NCBI RefSeq assembly: GCF_023008245.1 | Contig: NZ_CP090145.1 | Span: 1,674,001-1,738,000, forward strand | DNA from: Flavobacterium sediminilitoris | GTDB lineage: Bacteria; Bacteroidota; Bacteroidia; Flavobacteriales; Flavobacteriaceae | Direction of reading: 5' to 3' | DNA length: 64,000 nt | Shown here: positions 44,829 to 64,000 of the stretch, one piece after another | How the letters are laid out: every line of letters begins with the position of its first letter | Position numbering within the stretch: the first letter of the stretch is position 1 | Notes under the pieces: generated by a model | Told to the model about the DNA's origin: nothing | Databases searched by the model: none | What the model saw: the letters and a program-made list of their open reading frames with translations, nothing else | Program-made: the position numbers and the translations under genes

Positions 44829-44885
44829 GGCACATAATTTGTGTAGGTATTATTAACAATCTGTTAACATATAACCTATATAATT

Positions 44886-59817: not shown

Positions 59818-60018
59818 TTATTCAATTTCAAAAGTAACTTTCAAATTAACTCTAAATTCTGTTACTTCATTATTTTTTACACTTGCACTTTGATCTTGTA
59901 CATACACGGATCTAATATTTTTTAAAGACTGAGAAGCTTTAGCTACAGCTTTTCTCGTTGCATCTTCCCAACTTTTTTCTGAACTTGATAAAACTTCAAT
60001 AACTTTTAATACTGCCAT
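59818..60018 (-). CDS. Dodecin family flavin-binding protein
   Basis: 66 residues, typical dodecin size: MAVLKVIEVLSSSEKSWEDA, then KAVAKASQSLKNIRSVYVQD and EFRVNLKVTFEIE. Dodecins form 12-mers that store riboflavin or FMN and buffer free flavin. All expected beta strands and the short helix are visible. It is a single-gene unit with a terminator. Confidence 0.93.
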   Translation of the reverse strand: MAVLKVIEVLSSSEKSWEDATRKAVAKASQSLKNIRSVYVQDQSASVKNNEVTEFRVNLKVTFEIE

Positions 60019-60209: not shown

Positions 60210-60254
60210 ATAACATTAAATTAACGTTGGGTTAGCTAAAATATGACAACTTTG
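60210..60254 (+). promoter_or_regulatory. Pho-box-like 11-bp repeats and promoter of the first PiT gene
   Basis: Four hexamers start every 11 bases: ATAACA (60210), TTAACG (60221), TTAGCT (60232), ATGACA (60243). The last one abuts ACTTTG, the place of the -7 TTTG. The direct-repeat layout with 5-base spacers matches PhoP/PhoB-type boxes. The ATG is 22 bases downstream. The same layout occurs in front of the second PiT gene. Confidence 0.6.
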
Positions 60255-60276
60255 CATCGTTTTAAAAGTTAAGAAT

Positions 60277-62517
60277 ATGGAACAAATTTATGTGATAATG
60301 CTTGTGGCATTAGGAATTCTTGCAATTATTGATTTAGCTGTAGGAGTTAGTAATGATGCGGTTAATTTTTTAAACTCTGCTATAGGTTCAAAAGCCGTTT
60401 CACTTAGAACAATTCTTATTGTCGCAAGTATTGGAATTGCTGTAGGAGCTGTGTTTTCAAGTGGAATGATGGAAGTGGCAAGAAAAGGAATATTTATGCC
60501 AAGTGAATTTTATTTTAATGAAATTATGATAATTTTCATGGCAGTTATGATAACAGATATCTTACTTTTAGATTTCTTTAATACGCTAGGAATGCCTACA
60601 TCAACAACAGTATCGGTTGTTTTTGAATTATTAGGATCGGCAGTTGTTATTTCAGTAATTAAAATATTAAATAATGGAGATTCATTAGGTATAATTGGAA
60701 AATACATTAATACAGAGAAAGCAACAGAGATAATTATAGGAATTCTATTATCTGTTGTTATTTCTTTTTCAATAGGAGCCATTGTACAATATATTTCTCG
60801 TTTATTACTTACATTTAATTATGAAAAGAAAGCAAAATGGGTTGGAGCTATTTTTGGAGGAATAGCATTAGCGGCAATATCATATTTCATTATAATCAAA
60901 GGATTAAAAGGAACAGAATTTTACGAAAAAATTAAACCTATAATTAAAGATAAAACATTTTTAGTACTTTTAGTTAGTGCTGCTTTTTGGACACTTTTTT
61001 CTTTTGTTATTATTCAAGGATTCAAAAAAAATATCTACAAATTAGTAATTATAGTAGGAACATTTGCATTAGCATTAGCTTTTGCAGGAAACGACTTAGT
61101 TAATTTTATTGGTGTGCCTATTGCAGCTTGGCAGTCTTATGGAGCTTGGGTAGATTCAGGAGCTCCTGCAACTGGATTTGCAATGAGTGTTTTGGCAGAA
61201 AAGGTAGCAACTCCTACATTATTATTGATGATTGCAGGTGGAATAATGGTAATAACACTTTGGATTTCTAAAAAATCGATGAATGTTTTAGAAACAGAGC
61301 AAAATTTGTCACGTCAAGGAGAAGGTTCTGAAAAATATTCTTCAAATATAATATCTAGAGGTATAGTTAGAGGTGCAGTTATCTTAAGTAATGGTATCAG
61401 CTTTCTAATTCCTAAGTCAGTTCAAGCAACTATAGATGGAAGATTTCTAGCTGCTGAATATAAAGGAAAAAGAAGTGAACAACCTATGTTTGATATGGTT
61501 AGAGCATCTATTAATTTAGTTGTAGCAGCAGTTTTAATTTCTATAGCAACATCTATGAAATTACCATTATCTACTACATACGTAACTTTTATGGTAGCAA
61601 TGGGAACTTCATTTGCAGATAGAGCTTGGGATAGAGAAAGTGCTGTTTATAGAATTGCAGGTGTCCTAAATGTTATAGGAGGTTGGTTTTTTACTGCATT
61701 TGCAGCATTTATTTCTGCAGGAATAGTAGCATATTTATTATATGTTGGAGAAATCTATGCATTTTTTGGGTTAATGATTCTTGTAGCGGTCTTGTTTTAT
61801 AGAAGTAATCAAGTTCATAAAGCAAAAATGACTGAAAAAGAAGAAATTAAAAAACTGAATAAAGAAGATATCGTTAGTATTCATGAAGTAATAAATGAAA
61901 GTTCAGATCAAATTTCTAAAATTGTAAGTAAGACTAATAAGATTTATAGTGCAATTGTAGCAGGATTAAGTTTACAAGACTTACCATCTTTGAAAGAAAA
62001 TAAAAAATCAGTTAAGAAATTAGAAAAGCAAGTAGATGAATTAAAGAATAATGTTTATTATTTCATTAAGAATTTAGATGAAACTTCAGTGGAAGCAAGT
62101 AAATTCTATGTATTGACATTAGGACATTTACAAGACATTGTGCAGTCTATTAGTTATATTTCTCAAAGTAGTCATTCACATATAAATAATAATCATAAAC
62201 AATTAAAGTTTAATCAAATTAGAGATTTAAAAACAGTTGAATTAGAAATATTAGAATTGTTTAAGGATATTGAAGATATCTTTAACTCAAAAAACTTTAG
62301 TAGTATTGATAGAGCTTTAACAGAAAGAAAGAAAGTTTTAGAAACGATTTCTGATTTAATTCAAAAGCAAATAACAAGAATTAGAACAATTGAAAATAGT
62401 CCTAAAAACAGTAAATTATATTTCGGGTTATTATTAGAAACAAATGATTTAGTAAAAGCAACAATGAATTTATTAGAACTTTTTAAAGAGTTTAATGAAT
62501 ATGTTGAGAAAAAATAG
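60277..62517 (+). CDS. Inorganic phosphate transporter (PiT family) with C-terminal PhoU-like domain
   Basis: 746 residues. PiT halves are marked by LAVGVSNDAVNFLNSAIGSK near the N-terminus and FAGNDLVNFIGVPIAAWQS near 270-290, the duplicated GANDVANA-type signature. About 12 hydrophobic helices end near residue 510. Residues about 530-746 are a soluble helical domain, with coiled-coil stretches such as VKKLEKQVDELKNNVYYFIK and SISYISQSSHSHINNNHK, resembling PhoU-type four-helix arrangements. It probably imports phosphate, with the helical domain as cytosolic regulator. A second PiT gene follows. Confidence 0.9.
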   Translation: MEQIYVIMLVALGILAIIDLAVGVSNDAVNFLNSAIGSKAVSLRTILIVASIGIAVGAVFSSGMMEVARKGIFMPSEFYFNEIMIIFMAVMITDILLLDFFNTLGMPTSTTVSVVFELLGSAVVISVIKILNNGDSLGIIGKYINTEKATEIIIGILLSVVISFSIGAIVQYISRLLLTFNYEKKAKWVGAIFGGIALAAISYFIIIKGLKGTEFYEKIKPIIKDKTFLVLLVSAAFWTLFSFVIIQGFKKNIYKLVIIVGTFALALAFAGNDLVNFIGVPIAAWQSYGAWVDSGAPATGFAMSVLAEKVATPTLLLMIAGGIMVITLWISKKSMNVLETEQNLSRQGEGSEKYSSNIISRGIVRGAVILSNGISFLIPKSVQATIDGRFLAAEYKGKRSEQPMFDMVRASINLVVAAVLISIATSMKLPLSTTYVTFMVAMGTSFADRAWDRESAVYRIAGVLNVIGGWFFTAFAAFISAGIVAYLLYVGEIYAFFGLMILVAVLFYRSNQVHKAKMTEKEEIKKLNKEDIVSIHEVINESSDQISKIVSKTNKIYSAIVAGLSLQDLPSLKENKKSVKKLEKQVDELKNNVYYFIKNLDETSVEASKFYVLTLGHLQDIVQSISYISQSSHSHINNNHKQLKFNQIRDLKTVELEILELFKDIEDIFNSKNFSSIDRALTERKKVLETISDLIQKQITRIRTIENSPKNSKLYFGLLLETNDLVKATMNLLELFKEFNEYVEKK

Positions 62518-62527
62518 AACTCGTTTA

Positions 62528-62575
62528 GAGACTAACAAAAAAGGGATTCAATTGAATCCCTTTTTTGTTAGTCTC
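62528..62575. terminator. 48-bp perfect palindrome after the first PiT gene
   Basis: The 48 bases are self-complementary with 24-bp perfect arms and no central spacer, centred between 62551 and 62552. The core AAAAAAGGGATTCAA / TTGAATCCCTTTTTT gives a strong terminator hairpin with a T run; the outer GAGACTAAC arms extend it. It separates the two PiT genes. Confidence 0.88.
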
Positions 62576-62608
62576 AATTAAAATTATTATCTTTTACAAT
62601 TATTTAAC

Positions 62609-62653
62609 TTAACGTTAGCTTAACATTTTATTTAAGAAATTGTAACAAATTTG
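62609..62653 (+). promoter_or_regulatory. Pho-box-like 11-bp repeats and promoter of the second PiT gene
   Basis: Four hexamers start every 11 bases: TTAACG (62609), TTAACA (62620), TTTAAG (62631), GTAACA (62642). The last abuts AATTTG, exactly as in the first PiT gene. The ATG follows 24 bases later. Same phasing in two promoters argues for a shared DNA-binding regulator of the PhoB/PhoP type; that identity is inference. Confidence 0.65.
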
Positions 62654-62677: not shown

Positions 62678-64000
62678 ATGGAACAAGTTTATGTTATTAT
62701 GCTTATTGCATTAGCGCTTTTAGCTATTGTCGATTTGATGGTAGGAGTGAGTAATGATGCGGTAAATTTCTTAAATTCAGCAATTGGATCTAAAGCAGTT
62801 TCGTTTAAAACAATCATGATTGTCGCTAGTATTGGAGTTGCGGTTGGAGCGCTATATTCTAATGGAATGATGGAAGTAGCAAGAAGTGGAATTTTTACGC
62901 CAAGAATGTTTAGTTTTAATGATGTCATAATGATTTTCCTAGCAGTTATGATAACAGACGTATTATTACTCGATGTATTTAATACATTTGGATTGCCTAC
63001 ATCAACAACTGTTTCCATTATTTTCTCTTTATTAGGTGCTTCAGTTTTTATTGCAATATCAAAAATTTATGTAACAAATGGAGATATTAGTTCTTTAGGA
63101 AGCTATATAAATACAAAAAAGGCTACAGAAATAGTGTATAGTATATTATTATCTGTTCTACTTTCATTTGTTTTAGGAGCCATTGTACAGTATATTTCTC
63201 GTTTATTATTTACGTTTCATATAGAAAGAAGATATCGCTTTTTTGGAGCTATTTTCGGAGGGTTTGCATTGACCGCTATTTCTTTCTTTATCTTAATAAA
63301 AGGATTAAAATCGGTTACATTTATTTCTAGTGAAACAAAAGATTTTATAAAAGGGAATCAATTAATGATTATTGGGTATTGTTTTGTTTTTTGGACAATA
63401 ATGTCTCAAATTGTTATGAGTGTCATAAAGTTTAATATTTTTAAACTTATTATAATAGTTGGGACTTTTGGTTTAGCATTAGCTTTTGCAGGAAATGATT
63501 TAGTAAATTTCATAGGAGTTCCGATTGCTGCTTTTCAATCGTATGAAATGTATGCTGAAGCGGGACAAGTTCTTAATGCCAAAGAATTTATGATGATAGG
63601 GTTAGAAGGAGAAAATCTTCCCGCTCCATTCATATTTTTAGCATTAGCAGGAGCAATTATGATTTATACATTATGGACTTCCAAAAAAGCAAGAAATGTA
63701 ATTGAAACAGAACAAAACTTATCAAGACAAGGAGAAGGCTCAGAGAAATATAATGCCAATACATTGTCTAGATATATAGTTAGAGGAGCAATGTATATGG
63801 GAGGATTAATAAATTTTATTCTACCTAAAAGTATTCAAATTAGTATTGATAAACAGTTTGTTCTACCAGAATATACTGGGAAAAGAAATGAACAACCTAT
63901 GTTTGATATGGTTAGAGCATCTGTGAATTTAATTGTCGCTGCCGTGCTTATCTCTTTAGGAACTTCAATGAAATTACCTCTTTCAACGACTTACGTAACC
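62678..64000 (+). CDS. Second PiT phosphate transporter (3' end beyond window)
   Basis: The frame is open from ATG 62678 to the window end, giving 441 residues. It is closely similar to the preceding gene: MEQVYVIMLIALALLAIVDL, MVGVSNDAVNFLNSAIGSKA, AFAGNDLVNFIGVPIAAFQS, TEQNLSRQGEGSEKYNANTL and KLPLSTTYVT at the edge. It has a longer loop after about residue 290 (SYEMYAEAGQVLNAKEFMMI). A tandem duplication is clear. Whether it also has a C-terminal PhoU-like domain cannot be seen. Confidence 0.92.
   Translation, partial: MEQVYVIMLIALALLAIVDLMVGVSNDAVNFLNSAIGSKAVSFKTIMIVASIGVAVGALYSNGMMEVARSGIFTPRMFSFNDVIMIFLAVMITDVLLLDVFNTFGLPTSTTVSIIFSLLGASVFIAISKIYVTNGDISSLGSYINTKKATEIVYSILLSVLLSFVLGAIVQYISRLLFTFHIERRYRFFGAIFGGFALTAISFFILIKGLKSVTFISSETKDFIKGNQLMIIGYCFVFWTIMSQIVMSVIKFNIFKLIIIVGTFGLALAFAGNDLVNFIGVPIAAFQSYEMYAEAGQVLNAKEFMMIGLEGENLPAPFIFLALAGAIMIYTLWTSKKARNVIETEQNLSRQGEGSEKYNANTLSRYIVRGAMYMGGLINFILPKSIQISIDKQFVLPEYTGKRNEQPMFDMVRASVNLIVAAVLISLGTSMKLPLSTTYVT

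Follow-up and report, generated by a model that had tools for sequence, protein, structure and literature searches.

Each of the two tandem PiT phosphate transporter genes in the window, the stretch of 64,000 nucleotides from Flavobacterium sediminilitoris analyzed here, is preceded by direct repeats of a TTAACA-type hexamer in an 11-bp register. In related PiT promoters, a pair of these repeats is conserved at a fixed distance from a TTTG motif. A Pho interpretation is well supported by this comparison, and we consider it very probable that each PiT gene has a PhoB-dependent promoter, in which a Bacteroidota Pho box places PhoB over the -33 region.

The repeats before the two transporter genes

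An earlier note on this DNA had described four hexamers before each gene, and their positions, 11 bases apart in both promoters, are exact on re-reading (Table 1). The hexamers of gene 1 are ATAACA, TTAACG, TTAGCT and ATGACA, followed by ACTTTG, and match TTAACA at 5, 5, 4 and 4 of 6 positions. Those of gene 2 are TTAACG, TTAACA, TTTAAG and GTAACA, followed by AATTTG, with 5, 6, 3 and 5 matches. The presence of hexamer elements before both PiT genes is thereby confirmed as real.

Table 1. Positions of the repeats, promoter boxes and genes in the window
Feature	Position	Strand	Remarks
Core Pho-box-like element, PiT gene 1	60210..60227	+	repeats 60210-60215 and 60221-60226; TAAC at 60211 and 60222
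Degenerate repeats 3 and 4, gene 1	60232..60248	+	60232-60237 and 60243-60248; not conserved in related PiT promoters
-7 box CAACTTTG, gene 1	60247..60254	+	TTTG at 60251, 40 bp from first TAAC
PiT phosphate transporter gene 1	60277..62517	+	746 aa; Pfam PHO4
Perfect inverted repeat, terminator-like, between the PiT genes	62530..62573	.	read directly from the sequence
Core Pho-box-like element, PiT gene 2	62609..62626	+	repeats 62609-62614 and 62620-62625; TAAC at 62610 and 62621
Degenerate repeats 3 and 4, gene 2	62631..62647	+	62631-62636 and 62642-62647; not conserved in related PiT promoters
-7 box CAAATTTG, gene 2	62646..62653	+	TTTG at 62650, 40 bp from first TAAC
PiT phosphate transporter gene 2	62678..64000	+	751 aa; extends beyond the window end

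The two PiT genes are 72% identical. Since a perfect inverted repeat separates gene 2 from gene 1, gene 2 probably has its own promoter; a simple terminator scan made no call at this inverted repeat. In the window genome, PstB gave no match above the family cut-off, and PBP_like_2 gave one match of 44.8 bits, while the strongest in the genus exceed 150 bits. Because of these two results, the two PiT genes may carry the phosphate load of this genome. Divergently from PiT gene 1 lies a dodecin gene (59818-60018, minus strand), whose first 40 residues match PF07311 and which adjoins a gene for an MscS-type channel. A dodecin-like start is also visible upstream of PiT in several relatives.

Conservation of the pair and the number of repeats

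Relatives of gene 1 were taken as the best 80 of 179 stretches from a scan of named genomes. One locus (L100) was left out because it has only 21 bp upstream, so that 79 were usable. TAAC-N7-TAAC, which corresponds to a spacing of 11, is found within 120 bp upstream in 59 of these 79 PiT promoters, and the next commonest spacing of TAAC pairs in 14. In 100 dinucleotide shuffles, the spacing of 11 was obtained in a mean of 0.39 of 79 promoters and a maximum of 3; on the opposite strand, the count was 7. The strict form TAAC-N7-TAAC-N25-TTTG is present in 54 promoters, and gaps of 18-24 or 26-32 between the TAAC pair and TTTG occur in none of the 79. If TAAT is allowed, this loose form, with TTTG at +40, is present in 63 promoters. 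In 62 of these it is no more than 120 bp from the start; at L054 the distance is 243 bp, and the match may be that of the neighbouring gene. Both window genes fit the conserved form.

The 25 promoters of the 79 that lack the strict form, and in particular the 16 that lack even the loose form, count against this reading. PiT rows without a box are clustered, 8 of 13 falling in one clade of 14 (the 13 include L100, which is untestable). Three assemblies (L064/L098, L070/L087 and L065/L086) each have one PiT gene with the element and one without it, whereas both copies in the window have it. These three pairings suggest one phosphate-controlled and one constitutive PiT copy.

For a profile, 58 PiT promoters were selected and near-copies (90% or more identical) removed, which left 40 rows; the core was fixed by this selection, and members were chosen for having TTTG or TTTA. 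The window was excluded from the profile, and both of its sites were found, with E values of 3.7e-7 and 3.8e-6 in the window search. In the search of the whole genome, scoring covered 150 of 11,425 first-look candidates, and the two sites took second and third place (27.0 and 23.4 bits; E 2.2e-5 and 3.0e-4). The top match is a TonB-dependent receptor (32.6 bits, E 3.8e-7). This receptor gene (L160:337-2979, G000:C1:1328236-1330878) does not adjoin phoB. A scan of 60 genomes gave matches at E 1e-4 or better in at least 11; the lack of a match there means little, because only 98 candidates per genome were scored. In the window itself, a further TAAC-N7-TAAC pair at 44854-44868, a weak profile match of 13.5 bits with no TTTG at +40, stands immediately before a gene with a TonB_C domain, the second of two consecutive ones.

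Chance similarity would have some basis in the AT-rich intergenic DNA, where a scan for loose TTAAC triples with up to 3 mismatches gave 528 genome matches (270 forward, 258 reverse) and was uninformative. For the two-repeat core, chance is refuted by the conservation at exact spacing, and it is also countered by the ranks in the whole-genome profile search and by the association with gene families described below, so that we give it practically no weight. The earlier note had named the absence of the arrays from related species as one result that would tell against it; this did not occur, most orthologous PiT promoters having the core element.

It is a pair, rather than the four-repeat unit of the earlier note, that PiT relatives keep. 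A third repeat (TAAC, TAAT or TTAC at +22) is present in only 2 of 63 related PiT promoters. The fourth hexamer does directly abut A[AC]TTTG in both window promoters, as had been noted; it overlaps the -7 box, however, and is not conserved, the small excess in relatives falling mostly on the A of that box. Repeat 4 was accordingly dropped as a conserved site. At other genes, third repeats are common: all 8 promoters of one pstS clade have one, as do 13 of the 21 phoB-linked TonB receptor promoters with the core and 11 of the 16 porin promoters with it.

The window promoters might still be true four-repeat operators, on which two PhoB dimers would bind side by side in the manner of Bacillus PhoP and the weak distal pair would be needed for full activation. 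In the two window genes together, repeats 3 and 4 agree with the hexamer at 16 of 24 positions. With the phase fixed by repeats 1 and 2, this corresponds to a P of about 0.0008 at the given base composition, and among 13 phases tried +22/+33 gave the best match. In addition to the pstS clade and the receptors just mentioned, a pst locus of one other family (L314) has four phased repeats before an open frame. In view of the near absence of the third repeat from related PiT promoters and the overlap of the fourth with the -7 box, we regard such operators as possible but rather doubtful.

The PhoP box of Bacillus subtilis consists of TTAACA-type repeats with an 11-bp period, often four of them. 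The present element has the same repeat word and period, but it has two repeats at PiT genes and three at one pstS clade and most phoB-linked receptors, it is followed at a fixed distance by a Bacteroidota -7 box, and the regulators are only distantly related. The Bacillus-type set of four is not conserved at PiT genes, the third repeat being rare in PiT relatives and the fourth not kept. Because PiT relatives keep two repeats and other genes have a real third one, the putative operator is better described as a conserved pair, set at a constant distance from TTTG, to which further repeats may be added, and this description should replace that of four repeats.

Genes preceded by the element

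Independently of any pattern search, gene families were also counted one by one for promoters with two or three repeats and TTTG at +40. Of 23 rows for the TonB receptor adjoining phoB, 22 have the element, 20 of them in the strict form. These 23 rows were obtained from 30 phoB loci by a text filter that left out seven, of which four (L243, L244, L250 and L253) have the strict form, L245 has the loose form, L259 has neither and L252 has no receptor. All 8 PstS loci of one clade have the element, this clade having been picked by an N-terminal string after the scores had been seen. Among the other PBP_like_2 genes, which include some strong matches to that family (L214, L217, L220 and L224), it is present in only 1 of 22, and PBP_like_2 was rejected as too broad a marker family. 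The element is further found at 16 of the 30 Porin_O_P loci listed, at 14 of 34 porins beside PiT and at 1 of 3 second PiT genes. phoB's own promoter has it in 0 of 30 cases.

By comparison, the element precedes only 3 of the 283 other genes in the PiT loci, and all three (L051, L054 and L104) are related to the phoB-linked receptor, with E values of about 5e-55 or better. This count bears on a further explanation, namely that the repeats belong to a variant sigma-A promoter, as an extended upstream element that RNA polymerase recognizes by itself. The rigid N25 distance to TTTG would fit such a promoter. However, a general promoter variant does not suit the near restriction to these genes, and the one-turn spacing and variable repeat number suit a dimeric regulator; we therefore consider it highly improbable.

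A pattern search, TAACNNTNNNNTAACR-N24-TTTG, gave 3 matches in the window genome, namely, both PiT genes and the TonB receptor that is the top match of the profile, against 2 for the reversed control. In 41 genomes of the genus it gave 75 matches against 30 for the reversed control (summed from the table). Annotation covered part of the matches, 30 listed loci and 20 further stretches, with family names checked for ten proteins. Among those annotated are PiT, a DUF47 gene with a PiT-like gene after it (PHO4 by Pfam in L195 and by likeness in L201), PstS, Porin_O_P and TonB receptors, as well as several unrelated genes and a small number of sites within coding sequence.

In 13 of the 30 loci, from at least 13 genomes of the genus, the pattern precedes a MoxR-type AAA ATPase (L164, L166, L168, L170, L175, L178, L180-L183, L185, L188 and L189; Pfam was checked for L166), which counts against a strictly phosphate-related distribution. 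To our knowledge, MoxR-type ATPases have no link to phosphate. This gene may be another member of the regulon, or its promoter may have been kept by descent. The middle of the element is well conserved in most of these loci.

PhoX, which the earlier note had proposed as a place to look, did not bear out the expectation: 1 of 10 PhoX-like genes has the element, and that one is in the window's own genome. Overall, the element is found upstream of phosphate-uptake genes and is largely absent elsewhere, the MoxR-type promoters and the single PhoX-like gene being the exceptions. The latter (L306, G000:C1 near 3775500, minus strand) is the sole match to PF05787 in this genome; upstream of it, T[AT]AC occurs three times at 11-bp intervals, with TTTG at +40, and the nine other PhoX-like loci tested are without the element. 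In the light of these counts and of the orthologous promoters, the suggestion that an 11-bp-phased TTAACA-type element marks phosphate genes has held.

The probable regulator and the proposed geometry of the promoter

The window genome encodes eight OmpR-family (Trans_reg_C) regulators. Only one of them, at C1:1538571, has PhoB as its best NCBIfam match, and a PhoR-like kinase follows it. A PhoB/PhoR pair is thus present, although the PhoB homologue does not reach the equivalog cut-offs (219 bits against 296, and 207 against 270 for the Bacteroides model). Its neighbours are a TonB receptor, a lipoprotein-like protein and a glycosyltransferase with PF04101. The homologue is found in 41 of 41 genomes of the genus, in several of them near porin and pstS matches by coordinates. 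Between the phoB-linked receptor and the lipoprotein gene, an extra TAAC-N7-TAAC without TTTG at +40 was noticed (L161:7508-7621, minus strand); it precedes the lipoprotein, whose counterpart in F. johnsoniae is strongly induced.

Repeats with an 11-bp period are a general trait of OmpR-family operators. Another member of this family could therefore bind the repeats in place of PhoB, in response to a signal that overlaps the phosphate genes. The presence of eight such regulators would allow this, as would the fact that, among solved structures, MtrA matches the PhoB homologue best and that the scores of this homologue miss the equivalog cut-offs. On the other hand, the targets are phosphate genes, most rows of the receptor adjoining phoB have the strict element, and for the remaining seven regulators the best match is CzcR/CopR, KdpE or RprY, if there is any at E 1e-30. 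We regard another regulator as quite unlikely and take PhoB as the probable ligand of the element.

In F. psychrophilum, TAnnTTTG is the sigma-A consensus, at -12 to -5 (PMC9723704). The first base of the -7 box in the 40-row set is G in 23, T in 14 and C in 3 rows and is followed by A in 39 of 40; both window genes have C as the first base. The remark in the earlier note that the -7 element is poor agrees with this degenerate first base, in a set chosen for TTTG or TTTA. If TTTG occupies -8 to -5, the starts of the two repeats would be near -48 and -37, both on the same face of the helix, and the repeats would cover the -33 region. The distance to the -7 box is fixed, at N25 in 54 of 79 promoters, and the position overlapping the -35 region that the earlier note proposed would agree with this placement.

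The following mechanism is proposed. Under phosphate limitation, a dimer of phosphorylated PhoB would bind the two direct repeats, (T/A)TAAC-N6-TTAAC[AG]. With the downstream half-site placed over the -33 element, PhoB would substitute for it, contacting RNA polymerase that sits on the -7 box with its degenerate first base; we infer that it activates rather than represses. The same element would turn on PiT, pstS, phosphate porins and TonB receptors. It would then be a clean case of an activator acting on the atypical TAnnTTTG promoter.

The Pho box of E. coli PhoB consists of two CTGTCAT-type repeats with an 11-bp period that replace the -35 element. The present element resembles it in having two direct repeats one turn apart, predicted to lie over the -35 region, a probable PhoB-family regulator and phosphate genes downstream. 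It differs in its repeat word, TTAACA, in the TTTG-type -7 box, and in that the two-repeat form lies about one turn further from the -7 box.

Several published data bear on this reading. The phosphate-depletion response of Flavobacterium is known from transcriptomics and proteomics. F. johnsoniae Fjoh_0541-0546 has the same phoBR/TonB receptor/lipoprotein/glycosyltransferase neighbourhood as the window genome and is induced on phosphate depletion; Table 1 of the report gives fold changes of 8.02 for the receptor of the phoBR cluster, 9.91 for the lipoprotein and 5.42 for the glycosyltransferase (PMC8115612). In the same table, OprP of the phoBR cluster is not induced (-1.3) and PitA is absent, both of which count against the reading. 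PhoB itself is reported there as induced (fold change 3.06), yet the phoB promoters examined here are without the element. No Pho box is named in the main text of that paper, where "pho box" has 0 occurrences. Bacteroides fragilis PhoB, from the same class, is required for the expression of pstC and binds DNA from its promoter; the bound DNA is a 512-bp fragment for which the available part of the report gives no box, and it is not the present element (PMC3547664). In Riemerella anatipestifer, loss of a predicted PhoR-type two-component system raised pstS 8-fold (PMC5399024), the opposite of activation, which also counts against the proposal. In the open-access PMC literature, we found no published Bacteroidota Pho box or operator sequence. 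A strict, countable operator would allow the prediction of phosphate-starvation genes in flavobacterial genomes, including unusual TonB receptors.

The element may extend beyond the family. We think it likely that much of the class Bacteroidia shares one Pho box, made of two to four TAAC words in 11-bp register, which in Flavobacteriaceae would be locked at N25 before TTTG, would replace the -33 element of the phylum-specific promoter, and would bring PiT, Pst, phosphate porins and TonB-dependent receptors together in a single regulon predictable from sequence alone. In other families of the class, 20 pst loci were sampled, from 41 genomes above the PstB cut-off among 119 searched. Direct repeats with an 11-bp period, present in the PiT promoters, recur at these loci: TAAC pairs at 11 bp are found in 17 of 45 upstream regions, against 6 on the opposite strand, and at least one such pair is present at 12 of the 20 loci. 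The next spacings are 22 bp with 10, as expected for triple arrays, and 6 bp with 4.
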